NCBI RefSeq assembly: GCF_900187565.1
Contig: NZ_FYED01000009.1
Coordinates: 124,001 to 188,000, forward strand
Source: Pseudomonas sp. Irchel 3A7
GTDB lineage: Bacteria; Pseudomonadota; Gammaproteobacteria; Pseudomonadales; Pseudomonadaceae
Reading direction: 5' to 3'
Length of the DNA: 64,000 nt
Positions within the stretch are counted from its first letter, which is position 1; each line of letters starts with the position of its first letter. The translations under genes and the position numbers were made by a program. Of this stretch, positions 20,488 to 36,035 are shown piece by piece. The notes beneath the pieces are model-generated. The model saw nothing but the letters and a program-made list of their open reading frames with translations. It made no database searches and had not been told where the DNA came from.

Positions 20488-22263
20488 TCAGTGCCTGGCC
20501 ACCAGATCCTTGGGCAGTTTGAAGGTCCAGAGCATGCCGCCCTGATTGAAGTCCTTCACCCGCTTGGCCACTTCGCCGCCCCACAGCGGTACGGCGCCGC
20601 CCCAGCCGGAGAGCACCGAGACGTACTGCTCGCCGTCCATTTCCCAGGTCACGGGCGAGCCGAGTACGCCCGAGCCGGTCTGGAATTCCCAGACCTTTTC
20701 GCCGGTCTTGGCATTGAACGCCTGCAGGAAGCCTTCCGGCGTGCCGGTGAACACCAGGTTGCCCTTGGTGGTCAGCACCCCGCCCCACAGCGGCGCGAAG
20801 TTCTTGTGGCGCCAGACTTCCTTGCCGGTTTTCGGGTCGATGGCCCGCAGCACGCCGATGTAGTCTTCGTTCAACGGCTTGATGGTGAACCCGGCGCCGA
20901 GGAACGCCGCGCCTTTCTTGTAGGCGATGCCCTCGTTCCAGATGTCCATGCCCCACTCGTTGGACGGCACGTAGAACAGTCCGGTGTCCTTGTTGTAGGC
21001 CATCGGCATCCAGTTTTTCGCACCGAGGAACGCCGGCGCGACGAACACCGAACTGCCTTTAGCCTCCGAACCCGGCGCGCCGGGGCGGCCGGCTTCGTTG
21101 TAGATCGGCCGGCCGTTCTTATCCAGGCCGGTGGCCCAGGTGATCTTGTCGACAAACGGGAAGCCACGGATGAATTTACCGTTGGTGCGGTCCAGCACGT
21201 AGAAGAAACCGTTACGGTCGGCAGTGGCCGCCGCTTTGATTTCCTTGCCGCCTTCGCTGTAGTTGAACGACACCAGTTCGTTCACGCCGTCATAGTCCCA
21301 GCCGTCGTGAGGCGTGCTCTGGAAATGCCACTTGATGGTGCCGTCGTCCGGGTTGAGTGCCAGGCGCGACGACGAATAGAGGTTGTCGCCCGGCCGCAGG
21401 TGCGAGTTCCAGGGTGCCGGGTTACCGGTGCCGAACAGCAACAGATTGGTTTCCGGGTCGTAATAACCGCCAAGCCACGGTGCCGCGCCCCCGGTCTTCC
21501 ACAGGTCGCCCGGCCAGCTCTTGCCTGCCTCGCCGCCGGAAATGCCGTTTTCCACGGCTTTGCCGTCCTTGTAGACGTAGCCCATATGGCCTTCGACCGT
21601 TGGACGGCTCCAGAGCAAATTACCGTTTTTCGGGTCGTAGGCTTCGATCTTGCCCACCACCCCGAACTCGCCACCGGCCACGCCGGTAATCAGCTTGCCG
21701 TTGATCACCAGGGGCGCGGCGCTGATCGAGTAGCCTTCCTTGTGGTCGGCGACTTTCTTGCTCCAGACCACTTTGCCGGTGTCCTTGTTCAGCGCCACCA
21801 GCTTGGCGTCGAGGGTGCCGAAGATCACCAGGTCGCCGTACAACGCGACGCCCCGGTTGATCACGTCGCAGCAAGGACGAATGTCGTCCGGCAGGCGCGC
21901 ATCGTACTGCCAGAGCTTCTTGCCGGTGCGCGCATCCACCGCGAAAACCCGGGAGTAGGAACCGGTCATGTACATCACGCCGTCCTTGACCATCGGTTGC
22001 GCTTGCTGGCCGCGCTGCTTTTCGCCACCGAAGGAAAACGCCCACGCCGGTCGCAGTTCCTTGACGTTGTCGACGTTGAGAATATCCAGTGGGCTGTAGC
22101 GCTGACCCTGGACGCCCAGGCCATTGGTGACGACCTGTTCCGGGTTCTTGGGGTCCTGAAGAATGTCCTCGTCGGAAACCCCGGCCAATGCCTGGCCGGA
22201 CAACAGCATGGCACTGAGCAACAGGCTCAAGACGAAGGGCTGGCGACGTGCGGGTTGAGTCAT
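20488..22263 (-). CDS. pedH: PQQ-dependent alcohol dehydrogenase, lanthanide type (PedH)
   Basis: 591 residues with a signal peptide ending near ALA-GV (residue 28). Eight-bladed quinoprotein propeller. The vicinal disulfide Cys131-Cys132 lies in RPCCDV; metal ligands include Glu199 (GGEFG) and Asn281 (TGNPAPWN). Catalytic Asp323 is followed two residues later by Asp325 in GWDYDG. The extra Asp is the known hallmark of lanthanide-dependent enzymes (XoxF, PedH). It oxidises short and aromatic alcohols and aldehydes in the periplasm. The numbering agrees with P. putida PedH as I recall it. The promoter carries the GGGAAATTTTCCC palindrome shared with pedE. Confidence 0.95.
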
Positions 22264-22293: not shown

Positions 22294-22310
22294 CCGGGAA
22301 ATTTTCCCGG
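22294..22310. promoter_or_regulatory. 17-bp palindrome upstream of pedH, shared with pedE
   Basis: CCGGGAAATTTTCCCGG has perfect 8-bp arms around one central base and lies 30 nt before the pedH ATG. The core GGGAAATTTTCCCGG matches 14 of 15 bases at 25741-25755 upstream of pedE. Candidate binding site for PedR2 or PedR1. Confidence 0.6.
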
Positions 22311-22375
22311 TCTGGAGCAGATTCTTGGGCGCCGCCGCCCTGACAACAATTGGCCGCAATGTGGAGATTTCTAGT

Positions 22376-22387
22376 TCCTTGGTACAG
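22376..22387. promoter_or_regulatory. CCTTGGTA motif upstream of pedH
   Basis: TTCCTTGGTACA, about 115 nt before the pedH start. The same CCTTGGTA core occurs upstream of pedE (25694) and the ABC operon (30727), with a variant at 34667. Read on the plus strand here, so opposite to the gene. Confidence 0.4.
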
Positions 22388-22413
22388 GTTCGGAAGGAAT
22401 GGACAACTGCCCC

Positions 22414-22505
22414 CTGTGGGAGCGAGCCTGCTCGCGAAGGCGTCGTGTCAGCTGCAACTTTGCTGAATGACACACCGCTTTCGCGAGCAGGCTCGCTCCC
22501 ACAGG
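22414..22505. repeat. REP doublet R9, upstream of pedH
   Basis: Main-family arms with a spacer nearly identical to R8; together they form direct repeats of about 90 bp that bracket pedH. Confidence 0.92.
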
Positions 22506-22518
22506 GGATGGGGGTGAG

Positions 22519-23457
22519 TCAGTTGTTTGCATTGGAATCCACCCGCGTCATCCGGGCGCGCTCATAGCGTGGGTACAAATGACTGACGCTGCGAATCAGC
22601 TCATAGCGACTCAGGCTGATCCCGGCGAATCGCTCGGGGGTGGGGCTGCGGATCATTTCGGCCATGTCGCTGCCATGGGCCGCGCCCTCGCGCATCAACT
22701 GGTCGAGCCAGTTCAGGTAATCGCGCATTTGCGCAAAGGGTCCGGCATCGCGGGCGACCGGTCCATGGCCGGGCACGATCTGCGTCCAGGGCAACCCCTG
22801 CAGGGTCGCGATGTCGGCCAGCCACACCGACAGCCCCGGGCTGTTGGGCGTGGTCAGTGCCCGTTGATAAAACACCAGGTCCCCGGCAAACAGCACGCCG
22901 GTTTGCTGGTCGAGAATAGCCAGATCCGCACCGGTATGCCCACCCAGACTTAGCAGGCGCAGATCATGATTCCCAAAACTTTCCACGCCAGGGGTCAGCG
23001 TAAGGTTCGGCAGCACCACCTCGGTGCCGCGCATCCAGTCCCCCACCAGCCGGTACATGTTCTCGGCCATGGCATCGCCTTGCTTGTGCAGCAGTTCGGT
23101 GGTGCCGGCCAGTGCACCAATCGGCACATCGGCAAACGCCTGGTTGCCCAATACATGGTCGGGGTGATGATGGGTCAGCAGGACCCGGATCACCGGTTTG
23201 TCGGTGGTGGCGGCAATGGCCCGGCGCATGGCCTCGCCATAGCGCCTGGACGGGCCGCTATCAATCACCACGACGCCACGCTCGGTGACGATGAACGCGG
23301 TGTTGACGATGTTGCCGCCATTGTCCCTGGCGAAATTATCGGTGCTACCTTCCAGCAGCCAGGTGTCCTCGGCGATCTGCCTGGGCTTGAGCGAATATTC
23401 GAGATCGGCCATGACCGGCAAACACAGGCCGATCAACAACAGCAGCATCCAGCGCAT
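22519..23457 (-). CDS. Quinoprotein-associated metallo-beta-lactamase-fold hydrolase
   Basis: 312 residues from ATG 23457 with AAGGAA upstream. A signal peptide (MRWMLLLLIGLCLPVMA-DL) sends it to the periplasm. The zinc motif is LTHHHPDHVLGN, with further ligands in GGHTGADLAI and VPGHGPVARD. It belongs to the quinoprotein relay zinc metallohydrolase group found next to PQQ dehydrogenases and SoxYZ-like carriers. The substrate is unknown; a sulfur-linked reaction on the carrier next door is a guess. Last gene of the cytochrome-binding protein-SoxYZ-MBL operon. Confidence 0.82.
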   Translation of the reverse strand: MRWMLLLLIGLCLPVMADLEYSLKPRQIAEDTWLLEGSTDNFARDNGGNIVNTAFIVTERGVVVIDSGPSRRYGEAMRRAIAATTDKPVIRVLLTHHHPDHVLGNQAFADVPIGALAGTTELLHKQGDAMAENMYRLVGDWMRGTEVVLPNLTLTPGVESFGNHDLRLLSLGGHTGADLAILDQQTGVLFAGDLVFYQRALTTPNSPGLSVWLADIATLQGLPWTQIVPGHGPVARDAGPFAQMRDYLNWLDQLMREGAAHGSDMAEMIRSPTPERFAGISLSRYELIRSVSHLYPRYERARMTRVDSNANN

Positions 23458-23473
23458 GACAGGTTCCTTCAGG

Positions 23474-24235
23474 TCAGGGTATGGCCGCATCGAATTGATT
23501 GCCGCTGTTATCGCGCAACAACAGCCGCGTCTGCCCTGCCCCTTCGATATCGAACGCCAGGCTGGGGTTTTCGCTGACGGCGGGGAACAGTTCAAGGCGC
23601 GCCAGCAGTCGATCATGCTGATTACGCAGCTCAGCCTGATTGATGAAAAACTCCGGGATGCCACTGACCATGCCGTTGTCCATCGGATGCGCCACCTGCA
23701 GGCGCAGGCGACTGAAATCCTCGCGCGGATACCGGCCGCCCATCACTTCACCGATATGCTCTTCCCAACCGGCCTGGGTACGTACCACGCTCGGCGCGGT
23801 GCAGCCGCCACCGGCCGCATCAATCAGGGTCGAACCGACATGCCACAGGCCGTCACGGGTCAACACCGCCGCACGCAGGGGCGTGGCCTGCTCGACGCGG
23901 ATGCGGATCGACAGCCAGGGCAACACATCAGCCAGCGGCTCGAAATCGACGATTTTCGGCAAGGGGTTGAGTTCGGCCCAGGCGAGGATTTTCACGACAT
24001 CGCCCTTGAACGCCCTGGCATCGATTTCCAGCGGCACCTGTCGCGCGTCCTCGGCAAATGGCGGCGCCAACAGCTTGACCCGCTCATCGAACACAAACGG
24101 CGCATCGCCGAGCATTTGCTTGTGATAGAAGCTCCACATCACCGATGGCAGCGGGTCTTTACCGGGATCGACGGCGGCGGCATGGGCCGCCACGCTCAAA
24201 CAGCAGGCCAACAGACAACGCCTTTGCCATTTCAT
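23474..24235 (-). CDS. Quinoprotein-associated SoxYZ-like carrier protein
   Basis: 253 residues with a signal peptide ending near AHA-AAV. The N-half resembles SoxY and ends in AAGGGCTAPSVV with Cys145; the C-half (ARLELFPAVSENPSLAFDIEG) resembles SoxZ. A single-chain SoxYZ-like carrier associated with quinoprotein dehydrogenases, found in this operon context in other Pseudomonas. True SoxY carries its substrate on a C-terminal GGCGG Cys; here the Cys is internal. Function not established. It is 9 nt from the binding-protein gene and 16 nt from the hydrolase gene. Confidence 0.82.
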   Translation of the reverse strand: MKWQRRCLLACCLSVAAHAAAVDPGKDPLPSVMWSFYHKQMLGDAPFVFDERVKLLAPPFAEDARQVPLEIDARAFKGDVVKILAWAELNPLPKIVDFEPLADVLPWLSIRIRVEQATPLRAAVLTRDGLWHVGSTLIDAAGGGCTAPSVVRTQAGWEEHIGEVMGGRYPREDFSRLRLQVAHPMDNGMVSGIPEFFINQAELRNQHDRLLARLELFPAVSENPSLAFDIEGAGQTRLLLRDNSGNQFDAAIP

Positions 24236-24244
24236 CGCCTGCTC

Positions 24245-25120
24245 CTATTGGTACATCTCGGGCACGTCGTAACGCAGGCCGTAATGGTCGTAGAGGGTTT
24301 TCGCCGAACCGTCGCGGATCAGGCTCTCCAGCGCCTCTTCCACGGCATAGGCCAATTGGCGGTTGCTTTCGTGTACCGCCATGCCGATCTCCCAGAGCTG
24401 CTTGCCCATGTTCGGGTAGGCGTTCTGCGCCAGGGCCCATTGTGGATCGGCTGCTTCATGCACCTGCCAGTCAATTTCGCCGCGCATGGCCATGACCGCG
24501 TCGACCTCACCGGCCTTCATCGCAGCGAACGCCTGGGGCACGCCCGGATAGTGGCGGGTCTTGCCAGCGAGCATGCCGTTGAACACCGAGGTCAGGTAGA
24601 ACGAGGGCACGCTGTCGACTTCGACGCCGATCGGGTGCTGCTCGAACACTGCGACGCTGGCGACCTTGTCCAGTCGGCGGCGGTCGTAGGCGACTTGCCA
24701 TTGCTCATTCTGGTACGGCCCGAACATCACCACATGGCCGTTCTCCAGCTCGCCGAATTCGTTGCGCTTTTGCGCGTAGTCGCGGTCGTAAGGCACGCGC
24801 ATCATCAGGTCGGCCAGTTGCTGATTGTGCAACGGGCTGCTGCGCCAGATGTAATCGCGCAGATCGTCGTCAAGCTTCTCGCCGGCAGGCACCCAGATCA
24901 GCGTCAGGCGCACGCCCAACGCCTTGGCCAAAGCCTGGGCGAGTTCCACGTCAACGCCACGGGGCTGACCGGACTGTTCAAAACTGTAGGGGGCAAAATC
25001 CTTGTAGACCGCCACCTTCAACTCGCCAGCGGCGATCATTTCGTCATAGTTGCGAACCTGCGCCTGCACCGACTGGCAGCACAGCCACACAGCGCTGATC
25101 AACACCGCGAGCAGGCGCAT
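24245..25120 (-). CDS. Quinoprotein-associated periplasmic binding protein (PedG/XoxJ-like)
   Basis: 291 residues with signal peptide MRLLAVLISAVWLCCQSVQA. Type II periplasmic binding fold (LKVAVYKDFAPYSFEQSG, GVDVELAQALAKALGV). In methylotrophs the related MxaJ/XoxJ proteins help mature or activate the PQQ dehydrogenase rather than import a solute, and no permease lies beside it. It follows the cytochrome gene by 3 nt. A dehydrogenase accessory role is favoured. Confidence 0.83.
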   Translation of the reverse strand: MRLLAVLISAVWLCCQSVQAQVRNYDEMIAAGELKVAVYKDFAPYSFEQSGQPRGVDVELAQALAKALGVRLTLIWVPAGEKLDDDLRDYIWRSSPLHNQQLADLMMRVPYDRDYAQKRNEFGELENGHVVMFGPYQNEQWQVAYDRRRLDKVASVAVFEQHPIGVEVDSVPSFYLTSVFNGMLAGKTRHYPGVPQAFAAMKAGEVDAVMAMRGEIDWQVHEAADPQWALAQNAYPNMGKQLWEIGMAVHESNRQLAYAVEEALESLIRDGSAKTLYDHYGLRYDVPEMYQ

Positions 25121-25123
25121 GGG

Positions 25124-25585
25124 TCACTCCTCGACGCGGACGCTGTCCAGATAGGTGCGCACCGCCCACAGGGCTTCCTGACTCAGGTAGTCGGCCATTT
25201 TCGGCATGTATACCCGACCGTCACGCACCGCGCCATGGCGCACCCGCTCCACGAACCACTCATCGCCCGACTCACCGGCGTCGAGCATGCGCAAATCCGG
25301 GGCGATCCCGCCCGACTTGGCTTCCAGGCCATGACAGGCCGCGCAGTTCTGGTTGTAGGCCGACGCACCGATCTCCACTGCCTTGTCGTGCTCCGGGGCC
25401 GTGCGATAAGGGTTCACGGCGGCCCAGCCATCGGCGTCCAGTTGCACCCCGGCCTCCTTGATCGGGGTCAGGCCCTGAGTGGCGACGGCCTGCGGCACCA
25501 CATTGCCATGGGCCCAGACGGAACCCGCACTGATGAAACCGGCCAACAGCCCGGTGGCGAGCAAGGCGTTGCGTTTTGTTGTCAT
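25124..25585 (-). CDS. pedF: Cytochrome c550-type electron acceptor (PedF/ExaB-like)
   Basis: 153 residues with a signal peptide ending near VWA-HG. One heme site CAACH at residues 81-85; the distal Met lies in VYMPKM (Met127 or Met130). It takes electrons from PedE and PedH in the periplasm and passes them to the respiratory chain. Divergent from pedE across 253 nt; first gene of a four-gene minus-strand operon. Confidence 0.9.
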   Translation of the reverse strand: MTTKRNALLATGLLAGFISAGSVWAHGNVVPQAVATQGLTPIKEAGVQLDADGWAAVNPYRTAPEHDKAVEIGASAYNQNCAACHGLEAKSGGIAPDLRMLDAGESGDEWFVERVRHGAVRDGRVYMPKMADYLSQEALWAVRTYLDSVRVEE

Positions 25586-25692
25586 TGTTATGCCCTCAGG
25601 ATTGCACGCAAAACCTCTTGGCAGAGGCTATGGCAGCCATCTTAGAAACCCCGGGACCATGGCCCCATGCTGCTTTGGTGGCCGCCGTCTAA

Positions 25693-25706
25693 TCCCTTGG
25701 TAGTAA
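25693..25706. promoter_or_regulatory. CCTTGGTA motif upstream of pedE
   Basis: TCCCTTGGTAGTAAGG, with CCTT/AAGG arms, 132 nt before the pedE start and about 107 nt before the divergent pedF start. Confidence 0.4.
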
Positions 25707-25740
25707 GGCGTTGGACGGACTTCCAAATCAGGTGGTCCAT

Positions 25741-25755
25741 GGGAAGTTTTCCCGG
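25741..25755. promoter_or_regulatory. GGGAAGTTTTCCC palindrome upstream of pedE, shared with pedH
   Basis: GGGAAGTTTTCCCGG, 84 nt before the pedE ATG, one base different from the pedH site (22296-22310). Position suits an activator; the pedH copy sits closer to the gene, which suits a repressor. Confidence 0.6.
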
Positions 25756-25838
25756 CAATGGCGGGACTTTTTCCGTATCCGTCGCACGCCCGGCGCTCCA
25801 CCCTGTGCAGGTCAAAACCTCCACTGGGAACTGCAACC

Positions 25839-27728
25839 ATGACAATAAGATCGCTACCCGCCCTTTCCCCCTTGAGCCTCGCCATGCAGGCTTTTCTGCT
25901 GGTCGGCAGCCTGTCCCTGAGCGCGGCCGGTTACGCCGAAACCGCACCGGCCACCACCGGCAAGGTGAGCTGGGAAGATATCGCCAACGATCACCTGACC
26001 ACCAAGGACGTGCTGCAGTACGGCATGGGCACCAACGCCCAGCGCTGGAGCCCGTTGGCCCAGGTCAACGACCAGAACGTGTTCAAGCTGACCCCGGCCT
26101 GGTCCTATTCGTTTGGCGACGAGAAACAGCGCGGCCAGGAATCCCAGGCCATCGTCAGCGACGGCGTGGTGTACGTCACCGGTTCGTATTCGCGGGTATT
26201 CGCCCTGGATGCCAAGACCGGCAAGCGCCTGTGGACCTACAACCACCGCCTGCCGGACAACATTCGGCCCTGCTGCGACGTGGTCAACCGTGGCGCGGCG
26301 ATCTTCGGCGACAAGATCTACTTCGGCACCCTCGATGCACGACTGATCGCCCTGGACAAAAACACCGGTAAAGTGGTGTGGAACAAGAAATTCGGCGACC
26401 ACGCCGCCGGCTACACCATGACCGGCGCGCCGGTGCTGATCAAGGACAAGACCAGCGGCAAGGTGCTGCTGATCCATGGCAGTTCCGGCGATGAGTTCGG
26501 TGTGGTCGGGCAGCTCTTCGCCCGCGATCCGGACACTGGCGAAGAAGTCTGGATGCGACCTTTCGTCGAAGGCCACATGGGACGCTTGAACGGTAAGGAC
26601 AGTACGCCGACCGGCGACGTCAAGGCGCCGTCGTGGCCGAACGATCCGACTACCGAAACCGGCAAGGTCGAGGCTTGGAGCCATGGCGGCGGCGCCCCTT
26701 GGCAGAGCGCCAGTTTCGATGCCGAAACCAACACGATCATTGTCGGTGCCGGCAACCCCGGCCCCTGGAACACTTGGGCGCGCACCTCCAAGGACGGCAA
26801 CCCACGTGATTACGACAGCCTCTATACCTCGGGCCAGGTCGGCGTCGACCCGAGTACCGGCGAGGTGAAATGGTTCTACCAGCACACGCCGAACGATGCC
26901 TGGGACTTCTCCGGCAACAACGAGTTGGTGCTGTTCGACTACAAGGACAAGGACGGAAAAACGGTCAAGGCCACCGGCCATGCCGACCGCAACGGTTTCT
27001 TCTACGTGGTCGACCGCGACAACGGCAAATTGCAGAACGCCTTCCCCTTCGTCGACAACATCACCTGGGCCAGCCACATCGACCTCAAGACCGGGCGTCC
27101 GGTGGAAAACGAGGGCCAGCGTCCGGCCAAGCCGCTGCCGGGGGAAACCAAGGGCAAACCGGTGGAAGTCTCGCCCCCGTTCCTCGGCGGCAAGAATTGG
27201 AACCCCATGGCCTACAGCCAGGACACCGGGCTGTTCTACATTCCGGGCAACCAGTGGAAAGAGGAATACTGGACTGAAGAGGTCAGCTACAAGAAAGGCT
27301 CGGCCTATCTGGGCATGGGTTTTCGCATCAAGCGCATGTACGACGATCACGTCGGCACCCTGCGGGCGATGAACCCGACCACCGGCAAAGTGGTCTGGGA
27401 GCACAAGGAACACCTGCCGTTGTGGGCCGGTGTACTGGCGACCAAGGGCAACCTGGTGTTCACCGGTACCGGTGACGGTTTCTTCAAGGCCTTCGATGCG
27501 AAAACCGGCAAGGAGCTGTGGAAGTTCCAGACCGGCAGCGGCATCGTCTCGCCACCGATCACTTGGGAACAGGATGGCGAGCAGTACATCGGCGTGACCG
27601 TCGGCTACGGCGGCGCGGTGCCGTTGTGGGGCGGCGACATGGCCGAGCTGACCAAACCGGTGGCTCAGGGCGGGTCGTTCTGGGTGTTCAAGATCCCGAG
27701 CTGGGATAACAAGACAGCGCAGAAGTAA
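25839..27728 (+). CDS. pedE: PQQ-dependent alcohol dehydrogenase, calcium type (PedE/ExaA)
   Basis: 629 residues from ATG 25839; an in-frame extension upstream has no ribosome site and would precede the signal peptide. The signal region (about residues 10-33) ends near GYA-ET. Vicinal Cys145-Cys146 in RPCCDV; ligands Glu219 (GDEFG) and Asn306 (AGNPGPWN). Catalytic Asp356 is followed by Ser358 in AWDFSG, the calcium-type pattern, in contrast to Asp325 of PedH. It oxidises ethanol and many other alcohols in the periplasm and reduces the neighbouring cytochrome c. Confidence 0.95.
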   Translation: MTIRSLPALSPLSLAMQAFLLVGSLSLSAAGYAETAPATTGKVSWEDIANDHLTTKDVLQYGMGTNAQRWSPLAQVNDQNVFKLTPAWSYSFGDEKQRGQESQAIVSDGVVYVTGSYSRVFALDAKTGKRLWTYNHRLPDNIRPCCDVVNRGAAIFGDKIYFGTLDARLIALDKNTGKVVWNKKFGDHAAGYTMTGAPVLIKDKTSGKVLLIHGSSGDEFGVVGQLFARDPDTGEEVWMRPFVEGHMGRLNGKDSTPTGDVKAPSWPNDPTTETGKVEAWSHGGGAPWQSASFDAETNTIIVGAGNPGPWNTWARTSKDGNPRDYDSLYTSGQVGVDPSTGEVKWFYQHTPNDAWDFSGNNELVLFDYKDKDGKTVKATGHADRNGFFYVVDRDNGKLQNAFPFVDNITWASHIDLKTGRPVENEGQRPAKPLPGETKGKPVEVSPPFLGGKNWNPMAYSQDTGLFYIPGNQWKEEYWTEEVSYKKGSAYLGMGFRIKRMYDDHVGTLRAMNPTTGKVVWEHKEHLPLWAGVLATKGNLVFTGTGDGFFKAFDAKTGKELWKFQTGSGIVSPPITWEQDGEQYIGVTVGYGGAVPLWGGDMAELTKPVAQGGSFWVFKIPSWDNKTAQK

Positions 27729-28633: not shown

Positions 28634-29272
28634 TCACCCCGCCTTGCGCACCACCCCCATATCAATCCCCAGATGCACCAGTTCGGCATGGGAACTGACC
28701 TGCAGTTTGCTCTTGAGCAATGTCAGGTGATTGGACACGGTCTTGCTGCTGATGCTCAACTGTTCGGCAATTTGCCGCGCCGGGGTGCCTTTGGCGAGCA
28801 TCACGAAAATCTCCAGTTCGCGCTGGGTCATGCTCTGCAGGCGCGGGTCGCTGGCGTCCTGTTGCGGATGGCAGGCCAGTTGAGTGGCCAGCGGCTGTTC
28901 GATGTAGGCATGGCCGGCGAGGACGCGGCGCACGGCCTCGATCAACACCTGCGGCGCCGAGCTTTTGGTCAGGTAACCCGACGCCCCGGCGTCCAGTGCC
29001 TGACGCACCAAAGGCAATTCATCGTGCATGCTGAAAAACAGCACCCGCAGTTGCGGCAGGCGTTGGCGCAGTCGTCGGGTGGTTTCCAGGCCACTGATGC
29101 CCGGCAAGCCGAAATCCATGATCACCAGATGCGGCACGCTTTCCTGGACCCGGATCAACGCCTCTTCACCGGTCGCCGCTTCACGGACTTCCATCGCCGG
29201 CAACACGGCGCGTAACAGGCTGGCGTAGCCCTGGCGGACTACCGCGTGGTCATCGACCAGCAGAATATTCAT
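28634..29272 (-). CDS. pedR2: LuxR-type response regulator PedR2-like (ExaE/EraR family)
   Basis: 212 residues from ATG 29272, overlapping the kinase stop by 4 nt (ATGA). Receiver domain with Asp53 in LVIMDFGLPG and Lys in GYLTKSSAP; C-terminal LuxR helix-turn-helix (MTQRELEIFVMLAKG, ISSKTVSNHLTLLKSKL). In P. putida PedS2/PedR2 controls the switch between pedE and pedH in response to lanthanides; gene order here is the same. Candidate reader of the GGGAA(A/G)TTTTCCC palindromes, by inference. Confidence 0.87.
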   Translation of the reverse strand: MNILLVDDHAVVRQGYASLLRAVLPAMEVREAATGEEALIRVQESVPHLVIMDFGLPGISGLETTRRLRQRLPQLRVLFFSMHDELPLVRQALDAGASGYLTKSSAPQVLIEAVRRVLAGHAYIEQPLATQLACHPQQDASDPRLQSMTQRELEIFVMLAKGTPARQIAEQLSISSKTVSNHLTLLKSKLQVSSHAELVHLGIDMGVVRKAG

Positions 29273-30531
29273 GAAGCCTCCAAAGGCATGCGCAAGGTCA
29301 GCGCCCATCCGGCGCCGGGGTAGCTGATGATGCGCAGGTCACCGCCCAGGCTGCGGGCGCGTTCGCGCATCGAATGCAGGCCGACGCCGGGGCGCCGGGA
29401 TGGCGCGGCACCACGACCGTTATCGCGCACCAGCAGACGCAAGTGCGCACCGTGGTGTTGCAGACGAACCCGCACCTGACTGGCGTCGGCATGGCGGGCG
29501 ATGTTGGTCAGGGCTTCCTGCAGCAGGCGGTACAGATGGGTCTTGTCCGCTGCCGACAGCGACGGTAACTGCGCACTGATCCGCAACTGACAATCGATGC
29601 CCTGGCGGCCCTGCCATTGCTCCACCAGCAAGGCGAAAGCGTCGGCCAGCGGCAAGTGCTGCAACACCACCGGATAGAGGTTGTGCACCAGCGCACGAAA
29701 GCCTTGTTGCAGATGCTCGCAGTTGTGTTCCAGCTCCCGTACCGTGCGTTCGACGGTCTCCGGTCGATCCGCCACCAGGCGCAACAGGCAAGCCTGGGCA
29801 CGAATGCCGGCCAGGTACTGGCCGAGATCGTCGTGCAGGGTCTGGGCCAGCTGCGTGCGCTCCTGCTCCTGCACCGCCAACAGCGCCCGGGTCAGCCTGG
29901 CATTATCGGTACCGGCCTGTTCCAGTGCAGCGGTCATTCGGTTGAAATGCGCGGCCAGTTGCCGCGTCTCCGGTCCGCCCTGCGGACGCAAGCGCACCTT
30001 GAGCCGGCCAGCCGAAACCTGCTGCAACGCCCGCAGCAGTTCTTCGAGCAAACCCATGCCCCGTCGCACGGCCCAGCGGATCGTCAACAGACTGACCATC
30101 AGCGCCAGCGCACACAGGCTCAACAGTTGCTGCAGGGAATCCCGGACTTCATCGATTTCATCGCGCGGGTCCACGGCAATCTGCACCCGTCGGCCATCCG
30201 CCAGCGCCACCAGCCTTGCGCCATGAGGAACTTGCGCGAACAGCAGGCGCCCGAGCCAGGCATCGAGTCCGTCTTGCACCGGTAGCTGTGGCTGTTCATC
30301 CGGCGCCAGCCAGCGTACGCGCACATGGCGCAGGCTGGCGGTCAGTCGTGGTTGCAGGGTGACCGGGTCACGCCCGGCGGTTTCGCTCAGGTACTCGACC
30401 ACCGCTTCGGCCGATTGCAGTTCACGCTCCACATCCTCCAACGCCTGATGCATCAGCAACAGCATGCACGCCAGGGTGACCAGGGTGAAAAAACCGCAGA
30501 CCCACAGATTGATCCGCCACAGGGCTGACAT
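29269..30531 (-). CDS. pedS2: Membrane sensor histidine kinase PedS2-like (ExaD/EraS family)
   Basis: 420 residues. Membrane helix 8-28, periplasmic sensor region about 29-135, second helix about 136-155, HAMP (156-210), HisKA_3 with His233 in TLHDDLGQ, and HATPase with GVGLHSMRERARSLGG. The periplasmic part is acidic (for example DPRDEIDEVRD), which would suit metal sensing but is not proof. Start is 2 nt after the stop of a 40-residue ORF, and the response regulator follows with overlap, so all three are one unit. Confidence 0.87.
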   Translation of the reverse strand: MSALWRINLWVCGFFTLVTLACMLLLMHQALEDVERELQSAEAVVEYLSETAGRDPVTLQPRLTASLRHVRVRWLAPDEQPQLPVQDGLDAWLGRLLFAQVPHGARLVALADGRRVQIAVDPRDEIDEVRDSLQQLLSLCALALMVSLLTIRWAVRRGMGLLEELLRALQQVSAGRLKVRLRPQGGPETRQLAAHFNRMTAALEQAGTDNARLTRALLAVQEQERTQLAQTLHDDLGQYLAGIRAQACLLRLVADRPETVERTVRELEHNCEHLQQGFRALVHNLYPVVLQHLPLADAFALLVEQWQGRQGIDCQLRISAQLPSLSAADKTHLYRLLQEALTNIARHADASQVRVRLQHHGAHLRLLVRDNGRGAAPSRRPGVGLHSMRERARSLGGDLRIISYPGAGWALTLRMPLEAS

Positions 30532-30656: not shown

Positions 30657-30722
30657 GGTCAATCCCCTCCAGAGCAGTGGCCGTTGTCGACCATGCTAAA
30701 ACCGCGCCGTCCGGGGTGGTCT

Positions 30723-30750
30723 ACTACCTTGGTACTGGCCGGTTGGTACT
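30723..30750. promoter_or_regulatory. Tandem TTGGTACT motif before the ABC operon
   Basis: ACTACCTTGGTACTGG (30723-30738) followed by a second TTGGTACT at 30743-30750, 14 nt apart. Lies between the divergent pedS2 unit and the ABC operon. The first copy matches 34662-34677 at 14 of 16 bases. Confidence 0.5.
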
Positions 30751-30813
30751 TTCTGCATATTTGCACCACTGAATGGGCTTCCTATGCTGGCGCTACCTGT
30801 AATGGAGTGCCCT

Positions 30814-31998
30814 ATGCGCCAGCTTGCCCCTTACGCCCTGTTCTACCTGCTGGCGATTGCCTGCGCCGCCGGGCTGGCCACCCAGAGCCAGGCCGCGGAC
30901 GCACCGTTGCAGGTGCGGATCGGCTATCTGGGCTATCGCCCCGATCCCGGCCCGCTGCTGTCCAACGTCATTCCCGAACCCACGGACGCCGGGCAGCGCG
31001 GCGCTGAACTGGCGATCACCGACAGCAACAGCACCGGGCGCTTTCTCAATCACAGCTACAGCCTGGCCGGTGCCAATGTCGACAGCCCCGAAGCCTTGCT
31101 CATCGCTGCGAAAACCCAACATGAACAAGGGTTGCGCCTGTTTGTGGTGAACGCACCGGCCAGCAGCCTGCGCCAGCTCAGTGCGGCGCTGCCCGACAGC
31201 CTGTTGTTCAACGCCGGCAGCCCTGACGACAGCCTGCGCACCACCGATTGCCTGCCGAATGTGCTGCACAGTCTGCCGAGCCGGGCGATGCTCGCCGATG
31301 CGCTGGCGCAATTTCTGGTGCTGCGCAAATGGCAGCGGGCGTTACTGATCGTCGGCCCGACCGTGGACGATCAAGCCTACGCCACGGCTCTGCGCCGCGC
31401 CGCCAAGCGCTTCGGCCTGCAACTGGTGGCGGAAAAACCCTGGCGTTTCGATAACGATCAACGGCGCAGCGCCCAGGCCGATATGCCACTGTTTACCCAG
31501 ACCGCCGAATACGACGTGGTACTGGTGGCCGATGAGCGCGGCGACTTCGGCGAATACGTGCCGTACCAGACCTGGTACCCGCGCCCGGTCGCCGGCACCC
31601 AGGGCCTGACCCCGGTGGGCTGGCACAAGACCGTGGAAACCTACGGCGCCGCGCAGTTGCAAAAACGCTTCGAAGCGCTGGCCGGGCGCTGGATGAACGA
31701 CCGCGATTTCGCCGCATGGATCGCCGTGCGCAGCATCGCCAGCGCCGTGAGCAAACTGCGCCAGAGCGACCCGATGGCCATCCGTGACCTGGAAATCAGC
31801 GATCAATTGCCGCTGGACGGTTTCAAGGGCCGCAAGCTCAGTTACCGGCCGTGGAACGGCCAACTGCGCCAACCGATTCCGATCGTGCAACCCCGGGCGC
31901 TGGTCAGCACCTCGCCCCAGGACGGCTTTCTGCACCCCTTCAACGAGATGGACAGCCTGGGTTACGACAAGCCCGAGGTGAGCTGCCGCTTTCCCTGA
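30814..31998 (+). CDS. PQQ-cluster ABC system periplasmic binding protein (type I fold)
   Basis: 394 residues from ATG 30814 with GGAG 7 nt upstream; in-frame ATGs at 30784 and 30802 are less well placed. Signal peptide about 1-28 ending near SQA-AD. Resembles branched-chain amino acid type binding proteins (RIGYLGYRPD, GRFLNHSYSLAGANV, RRAAKRFGLQLVAEKPW). First gene of a four-gene operon with a beta-propeller and an ABC-2 exporter. In P. putida U this transporter was linked to phenylethanol use (ped genes); ligand not known. Confidence 0.83.
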   Translation: MRQLAPYALFYLLAIACAAGLATQSQAADAPLQVRIGYLGYRPDPGPLLSNVIPEPTDAGQRGAELAITDSNSTGRFLNHSYSLAGANVDSPEALLIAAKTQHEQGLRLFVVNAPASSLRQLSAALPDSLLFNAGSPDDSLRTTDCLPNVLHSLPSRAMLADALAQFLVLRKWQRALLIVGPTVDDQAYATALRRAAKRFGLQLVAEKPWRFDNDQRRSAQADMPLFTQTAEYDVVLVADERGDFGEYVPYQTWYPRPVAGTQGLTPVGWHKTVETYGAAQLQKRFEALAGRWMNDRDFAAWIAVRSIASAVSKLRQSDPMAIRDLEISDQLPLDGFKGRKLSYRPWNGQLRQPIPIVQPRALVSTSPQDGFLHPFNEMDSLGYDKPEVSCRFP

Positions 31999-35369: not shown

Positions 35370-36035
35370 ATGTACAAAATTCTGATTGCCGACGATCACC
35401 CGCTGTTTCGCGAAGCCATACACAACGTCATCAGCGATGGTTTTTCCGGCAGCGAGGTGATGGAAACCGCCGACCTCGACAGCGCCCTGGCACTGACCCA
35501 GGAACACGATGACCTGGACCTGATCCTGCTCGACCTGAACATGCCCGGCATGCATGGGCTCAACGGCCTGATCAACCTGCGCAACGAAGCGCCGACCATT
35601 CCGGTGGTGATTGTTTCCGCCGAACAGGACAAACAGATTGTCCTGCAAGCCATCACCTACGGTGCCGTGGGTTTCATCACCAAATCTTCGCCCCGCGCGC
35701 AAATGACCGACGCTATCCAGCAGATTCTCAATGGCAACGTCTACCTGCCCCCGGACATCATCCGCACGGCCAAAAGCAGCACCCACCGGCGAATGAACGA
35801 CGCCCCGAGCTTCCCGCCGGAGCTGCTCCAGGCCCTGACCCGCAAGCAGCTGCAGGTCCTGGAGCGCATGACCAAGGGCGAATCGAACAAACAGATCGCC
35901 TACGCCCTGGAAATTGCCGAAACCACGGTCAAGGCCCACGTCTCGGCGATCCTGCGCAAACTCAACGTACACAACCGCGTGCAGGCGATCCTGAGTGCCG
36001 GTGATATTGATTTCGGGTCGTATTTGCGGCGTTGA
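35370..36035 (+). CDS. pedR1: LuxR-type response regulator PedR1/AgmR/ErbR
   Basis: 221 residues. Receiver with Asp55 in [10 protein letters not shown] and Lys in GFITKSSPR; LuxR helix-turn-helix in [22 protein letters not shown] and [19 protein letters not shown]. AgmR/ErbR is the master activator of quinoprotein alcohol oxidation in Pseudomonas. Convergent with nahK, which lies in the position of its proposed sensor kinase. Confidence 0.87.

Follow-up and report, generated by a model that had tools for sequence, protein, structure and literature searches.

A palindromic candidate operator of the PedR2 lanthanide switch before pedH and pedE in Pseudomonas

The rare-earth switch of Pseudomonas putida KT2440 was established genetically as inverse control of two pyrroloquinoline quinone (PQQ) alcohol dehydrogenase genes, pedE and pedH, by the two-component system PedS2/PedR2 (PMC6115532). 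Here we describe a palindrome that stands before both genes in Pseudomonas sp. Irchel 3A7 and that probably serves as the PedR2 operator. The DNA analysed is a stretch of 64,000 nucleotides (nt) from contig NZ_FYED01000009.1 (positions 124,001 to 188,000), called the window below. The window contains the ped cluster, in which profile matches identify pedH and pedE as methanol/ethanol-type PQQ dehydrogenases; the ped names were assigned by gene order, after the table in PMC12997753. PedR2, a NarL/LuxR-type regulator, is encoded near the sites and matches NarL/UvrY-type profile models over its length, with scores below the curated cut-offs.

Paired palindromes before pedH and pedE

The pedH copy, CCGGGAAATTTTCCCGG, occupies positions 22294-22310, with 30 nt separating its end from the pedH ATG (22263, minus strand), and the pedE copy, GGGAAGTTTTCCCGG, occupies 25741-25755, with 83 nt between its end and the likely pedE ATG (25839). 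Both lie where a preliminary description of this DNA had placed them; its distance of 30 nt at pedH is confirmed, and the 84 nt that it gave at pedE is one too many. The element is a short inverted repeat with dyad symmetry (a 7-3-7 palindrome), which is an expected trait of an operator for a NarL/LuxR-type regulator, and the same motif is found at two promoters that are oppositely controlled.

Close copies of the palindrome are rare. Within the window, GGGAANTTTTCCCGG occurs twice, at pedH and pedE, and in 0 of 100 window shuffles, while GGGAANNNTTCCC also occurs only at these two places against a shuffle mean of 0.07, with two or more copies in 1 of 100 shuffles. With 3 mismatches allowed there are 5 matches in the window against a chance mean of 3.5, which is no excess, so the special status is limited to close copies. 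The preliminary description had seen no further copy in the intergenic DNA of the window; this holds for close copies, and overlooks a degenerate one, GCGGGACTTTTTCCGTA, at 25761-25777. The pedH and pedE sites are likewise the only places in the window within one mismatch of the core CGGGAANNNTTCCCG.

In the whole 6.52-Mb genome we found exactly three occurrences of GGGAANTTTTCCC, two of them the pedH and pedE copies, and six of GGGAANNNTTCCC, again including these two, against three for a backwards control. Of the four remaining GGGAANNNTTCCC matches, one falls within lolB (L016), one (L021) is in reading frames that have no family match, one (L017, position 1501) is some 150 nt 5′ of a gene for an aminotransferase, and one (L001, position 1501) is where a LysR-type gene begins, next to an EamA transporter gene. 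None of the four is flanked by both the outer C and the outer G. Since the same is true of the pedE copy of this genome, the 5′ places at L017 and L001 could be further targets. At up to two mismatches, CGGGAANNNTTCCCG has 396 places in the genome against 334 for the backwards control, so that the pattern alone is insufficient to read out a wider regulon. One sequence that recurred among the matches listed, CGGGAACATTTCCCG, lies inside a DUF2170 gene in both of the loci scanned with Pfam (L130, position 4784; L131, position 4982) and was set aside, its recurrence probably reflecting coding constraint.

A PedR2 search of genome contigs yielded 80 loci, in which leaders were placed by script and to which the window itself was added for each set; the script cut-offs left 13 of these loci without a usable pedE start and 19 without a pedH start. 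We observed 12-14 of the 14 arm bases in every leader placed, 68 of 68 at pedE and 62 of 62 at pedH, and this conservation rules out a chance origin. The site lies 81-85 nt from pedE wherever the start was directly placed (five extrapolated starts gave readings of 49-64 nt). In a wider sample it lies 26-32 nt from pedH in 117 of 121 genomes and 36-49 nt in the remaining four. At pedE, the centre varies at its first and third bases; at pedH it is mostly AAT, inside AAAATTT. Three of the 121 pedH leaders carry double changes that preserve the symmetry, TCGGG...CCCGA.

The pedE site is doubled. Among 298 Pseudomonas genomes, 103 have pedE, and we analysed the leaders of the 89 that were fetched and had a usable start, which leaves out 14; the site described above, site 1, scores 11-14 of 14 in all 89. 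Aligning the leaders on site 1 reveals a second block, GCGGGAnTTTTTCCGTA, less symmetric and equally constant, exactly 22 base pairs (bp) downstream in 89 of 89. In other genera of the family, 52 genomes have a PedR2 match, and from the 11 loci fetched we recovered the pair at 22 bp in all 8 readable pedE leaders, which represent six genera and score 9-13; both copies are degenerate at locus L261, with 9 of 14 each. Four readable pedH starts outside Pseudomonas have site scores of 14, 14, 11 and 11.

Relaxation of the pedH site in genomes without PedR2

PedE and PedR2 are inherited together. Across the 298 genomes PedR2 is present in 102, PedE in 103 and PedH in 121, at E-value cut-offs of 1e-50, 1e-290 and 1e-280, respectively, on which these calls depend. 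PedE and PedR2 occur together in 101 genomes, PedE alone in 2 and PedR2 alone in 1, and the assemblies of the three exceptions (G035, G265 and G075) comprise 530, 1200 and 650 contigs, respectively. Of the genomes with PedH, 78 have PedR2 as well; among the other 43, PedE too is missing from 41. G035 and G265, with pedE and no PedR2 match, are within the 43 for site scores, in neither group for the column-deviation and core comparisons, and PedR2-bearing in the tree.

Of the 121 pedH-bearing genomes, the 41 without pedE and pedR2 are represented by loci L136-L138, L140, L147 and L149-L184. In 38 of these loci pedF and pedA1 are both on the stretch with pedE, pedD, pedR2 and pedS2 gone, and in the other three pedA1 is absent or beyond the end of the stretch; remnants are a pedS2 scrap in L149 and a pedE scrap in L178. 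These lineages seem to keep just the lanthanide enzyme of the pair. A search for a hidden PedR2 orthologue in 14 of the 41 genomes (E 1e-25) returned paralogues of 31-40% identity only.

The pedH site is looser in the genomes that have lost PedR2. Of the 78 PedR2-bearing genomes, 74 have a site scoring 14, three 13 and one 12; of the 43 without PedR2, 22 score 14, 13 score 13, seven score 12 and one 11. The core CGGGAANNNTTCCCG is intact at pedH in 77 of 78 genomes with PedR2 and in 27 of 41 without, leaving it broken in 14 of the genomes that retain pedH without pedE and pedR2 (Fisher p = 7e-7, not corrected for kinship). The preliminary description had staked its idea in part on the palindrome being kept in genomes with both genes, and the 77 of 78 at pedH, together with the 89 of 89 at pedE site 1, bear this out. 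The 14 arm columns deviate on average by 0.46% with PedR2 and by 5.2% without, compared with 0.72% and 1.6% for 46 further leader columns whose conservation is at least 95%. Ranked by relaxation, the palindrome comes top among all 17-column windows of the pedH leader, with a ratio of 2.6.

We also counted changes by parsimony on a single pedH gene tree (FastTree, midpoint root), which gives 22 PedR2 losses under Dollo and 13 losses with 6 gains under Fitch. The 14 arm columns have 5 changes in 5.12 units of PedR2-bearing branch and 18 in 2.09 units of PedR2-less branch, 6 of the 18 falling on branches of loss. In 48 conserved control columns the corresponding counts are 29 and 28, and in 69 variable columns 651 and 207. 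The rate thus rises 9 times in the arms without PedR2 and 2.4 times in the conserved controls (Fisher on tree counts: arms against controls, p = 0.024; arms against variable columns, p = 1e-7). A cautious reading of these comparisons is that the constraint on the palindrome would be due to PedR2 in good part, not wholly.

Promoter geometry and a proposed switch

The two genes differ in where the palindrome lies relative to the predicted promoter. At pedH, exactly 10 bp separate the end of AAGAAT from the palindrome in 119 of 121 leaders, and a hexamer starting with TTG lies 17 bp before AAGAAT in 117 of those 119, being TTGTTG in 89. We read these hexamers, which were derived from conservation only, as the pedH -10 and -35 elements, with a predicted transcription start 3-5 bp before the palindrome. 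A bound dimer would then cover roughly the first 20 transcribed bases, which is the position of a repressor. At pedE, the pair of sites is upstream of the stretch holding the promoter, provided that the promoter lies between the pair and the ATG, and so would be in an activator position. Columns 60-72 downstream of site 1, which are conserved (CCACCCTGTGCA and variants), were searched for a pedE -10 element, and none could be assigned there with confidence. The preliminary description had argued from a near site at one gene and an upstream site at the other, and a conserved promoter-like pair directly before the pedH copy, with the pedE copies upstream, fits that argument.

Published genetics in KT2440 fit this geometry. 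The activity of the pedE promoter requires PedR2, a constitutive PedS2 S178P allele lowers pedH promoter activity 45-fold without and 30-fold with La3+, and the growth defect of this allele is abolished by deletion of pedR2 (PMC6115532). Together with the geometry of the sites, this activation of pedE and repression of pedH by PedR2 suggests one motif put to two uses with opposite effects. We propose, with a probability of roughly 0.85, that CGGGAA-N3-TTCCCG is the PedR2 operator, tandem dimers activating pedE and one dimer over the pedH start repressing it. This agrees with the preliminary description, which suggested that the palindrome may be the operator of the lanthanide switch; conservation, the loosening of the pedH site after loss of pedE and pedR2, and the fit of the positions all support that reading.

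In the published model, PedS2 phosphorylates PedR2 when lanthanides are absent. The phosphorylated regulator would bind upstream of the pedE promoter as two tandem dimers on sites 1 and 2, spaced by about two turns of the helix, and recruit RNA polymerase there, while the same dimer on the single site some 3-5 bp past the predicted pedH start would block transcription of pedH. With lanthanides present, phosphorylated PedR2 would drop, turning pedE off and releasing pedH. The position and number of the motif would thereby set opposite signs at the two promoters.

Several observations weigh against this proposal. Besides pedE, 27 further places in the genome are within one mismatch of CGGGAANNNTTCCCG, so the two ped sites are not singled out by sequence alone. 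A sigma-70 consensus scan found no promoter at pedH or pedE. The conserved control columns loosen as well after PedR2 loss, which makes part of the relaxation general, and the tree-based p value of 0.024 is modest. Intact cores persist in the 27 PedR2-less genomes mentioned above, and 14 of the 22 inferred loss groups keep the pedH core wholly intact; this means either that many of the losses happened recently or that the site is held in place by a further factor as well. Finally, pedH promoter activity in a pedE pedR2 double mutant is in about the same range as in a pedE mutant (PMC6115532), suggesting that native repression of pedH is partial at most.

The intact cores can also be explained by another regulator common to pedH and pedE, such as PedR1 (AgmR/ErbR) or a lanthanide-dependent activator, which would read the palindrome while PedR2 acts elsewhere or competes. 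A PedR1 orthologue (more than 80% identical) is present on 20 of the 41 PedR2-less stretches, many of the others ending before its place, and a divergent pair of genomes (G190 and G222, PedH 82%) keeps the core, the closest response regulator to PedR2 found there being 36% identical. We consider this explanation improbable. It leaves unexplained why the site loosens on loss of pedE and pedR2 while PedR1 stays, and this co-loss is why we assign the site to PedR2 over PedR1. Moreover, AgmR (PedR1) is reported to raise the pqq operon along with the majority of the ped genes (PMC12997753), though within one mismatch the core fits only the pedH and pedE sites in the window; the box CTANTNCCTTGGTA, described below, is a better candidate for a wider regulator.

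A function in RNA is less probable still. The pedH palindrome could form a hairpin in the 5′ leader, acting on mRNA stability or as an attenuator, with the likeness to pedE being secondary, and the predicted pedH leader does form a 7-bp stem (-13.4 kcal/mol, z -1.68). This fold is weakly significant, with 11 of 200 shuffles folding as well, and the stretch around the pedE copies folds no better than its shuffles (z 0.06). Changes in one arm occur at both genes, for example TCGGGAAATTGTCCCGG at pedE and CCGGGAAACTCTCCCGC at pedH. Despite the three symmetric double changes at pedH, a significant fold with a compensated stem, as would mark an RNA leader or attenuator, was not found, and a hairpin offers no reason for relaxation upon PedR2 loss. 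We give hardly any credence to the idea that the likeness of the two sites has no regulatory role and reflects chance or the common descent of two promoters, even though pedH and pedE are paralogues within one cluster: the distance to the gene differs, yet the arms are nearly invariant while the three-base centre at pedE has two freely varying positions, and no window shuffle contained two such copies.

A second shared box, neighbouring features and known systems

The ped genes share another box. The genome contains exactly four copies of CTANTNCCTTGGTA, and three of these precede pedH, pedE and the lanthanide-transporter gene pedA1; with one mismatch it has 8 places in the genome against 18 for the backwards control and is therefore not commoner than expected from it. 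A related pattern, TNCCTTGGTA, has three occurrences in the window against 0.08 expected, all before the same three genes. At least 10 of 12 box bases are matched in every readable leader (107 of 107 at pedA1, 81 of 81 at pedE and 116 of 116 at pedH; loci L027-L186, in which a few genomes are represented twice), PedR2-less genomes included. Its orientation at pedE is one way in 79 leaders and the other in 2, and within the window the box was not found before the pqq genes or exaC. As a lead only, the CTANTNCCTTGGTA box may be the site of a common activator, for which PedR1 is one candidate, and, separately from the palindrome, it would carry the control common to pedH, pedE and pedA1. A bolder extension, which we hold as tentative and somewhat below even odds, is that the two boxes write the whole switch: the PedR2 palindrome would give a sign by position, CTANTNCCTTGGTA would be the site of a regulator activating pedH and the transporter, and without pedE and PedR2 the palindrome would drift while CTANTNCCTTGGTA stays.

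Coordinates of the features are collected in the table. According to profile matches, the genes between and beside pedH and pedE encode a metallo-hydrolase, a SoxYZ protein, a solute-binding protein, a cytochrome c, a pentapeptide protein and PedS2. Also beside them are pedA1, pedA2 and the genes for a CXXCW rhodanese-like protein, a PedR1-like regulator, an NahK/ErcS'-type kinase and NosP, and the other flank of the cluster holds exaC, pqqB, pqqC, pqqE and ercA. Between pedH and the metallo-hydrolase gene lies a long inverted repeat (CCCCTGTGGGAGCGAGCCTGCTCGCGAAG and its complement, about 22418-22505), which we take to resemble a repetitive extragenic palindromic (REP/REPIN) element. In the pedF-pedE intergenic region (about 25620-25690), the blocks CCATCTTAG and ATGCTGCTTTGGTGG are also strongly conserved.

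Features of the pedH-pedE region and its regulators, in window coordinates
Feature	Position	Strand	Remark
pedH, PQQ alcohol dehydrogenase	20488..22263	-	TIGR03075; lanthanide type from gene order and orthology
Candidate pedH operator, palindrome CCGGGAA-N3-TTCCCGG (7-3-7)	22294..22310	-	Core intact in 77/78 PedR2-bearing genomes
Predicted pedH -10 hexamer, AAGAAT	22321..22326	-	From conservation (119/121 leaders); ends exactly 10 bp before palindrome
Predicted pedH -35 hexamer, TTGTTG	22344..22349	-	17 bp before AAGAAT; TTG-starting hexamer in 117/119
Second shared box before pedH, CTAGTTCCTTGGTA	22371..22384	+	Orientation opposite to pedH
Second shared box before pedE, CTAATCCCTTGGTA	25689..25702	+	
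Candidate pedE operator site 1, ATGGGAA-GTT-TTCCCGG	25739..25755	+	Conserved position and arms
Candidate pedE operator site 2, GCGGGACTTTTTCCGTA	25761..25777	+	22 bp from site 1
pedE, PQQ alcohol dehydrogenase	25839..27728	+	Calcium type from gene order and orthology
pedR2, NarL/LuxR-type response regulator	28634..29308	-	Proposed palindrome reader; name from gene order
pedS2, sensor histidine kinase (HAMP, HisKA_3, HATPase_c)	29269..30531	-	
Second shared box before pedA1, CTACTACCTTGGTA	30721..30734	+	
pedA1, substrate-binding protein of PQQ alcohol dehydrogenase-associated ATP-binding cassette (ABC) transporter	30784..31998	+	TIGR03863
pedR1-like (AgmR/ErbR-like) response regulator	35370..36035	+	Alternative palindrome reader; name from gene order

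The closest known system is the KT2440 switch itself, with the same genes. In the main text of that study (PMC6115532) the terms "palindrom", "motif" and "operator" each occur 0 times; what we add is a candidate site, together with the finding that it is doubled at pedE and decays once PedR2 has been lost. The control of exaA by EraSR in P. aeruginosa involves an orthologous regulator and a pedE-type gene (PMC12997753), and the 22-bp tandem pair also occurs in six further genera of the family. P. aeruginosa PAO1 is reported to have no functional pedH homologue, and thus no pedE/pedH pair to switch (PMC12997753). The exaA gene of Azospirillum brasilense also encodes a PQQ alcohol dehydrogenase and has a LuxR-type response regulator that shares 45% identity with PedR2, but it differs in its sigma-54 dependence (PMC6115532). 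Two-component control of calcium and lanthanide alcohol dehydrogenases is also found in a methylotroph with MxcQE, MxbDM and MxaB, which are different regulators (PMC6115532). In the full-text literature searched, which leaves aside subscription papers, preprints and supplements, we found no DNA site named for the Pseudomonas rare-earth switch. The text of a 2026 review of the ped cluster contains "palindrom" 0 times and calls several regulatory features unresolved (PMC12997753). An atlas for P. aeruginosa made by high-throughput systematic evolution of ligands by exponential enrichment (HT-SELEX) names EraR, the PedR2 orthologue, once in its main text, and its supplements may hold a motif for it (PMC8041468).

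The genetics of the switch are already published, and the new part is a defined DNA site with a fixed geometry. With such a site, a handful of point mutations would put the switch to a direct test, and the switch could serve as a promoter part that responds to rare earths. Independent evidence comes from the natural loss of pedE and pedR2, and these losses mark lineages of Pseudomonas that seemingly keep only the lanthanide enzyme of the pair.

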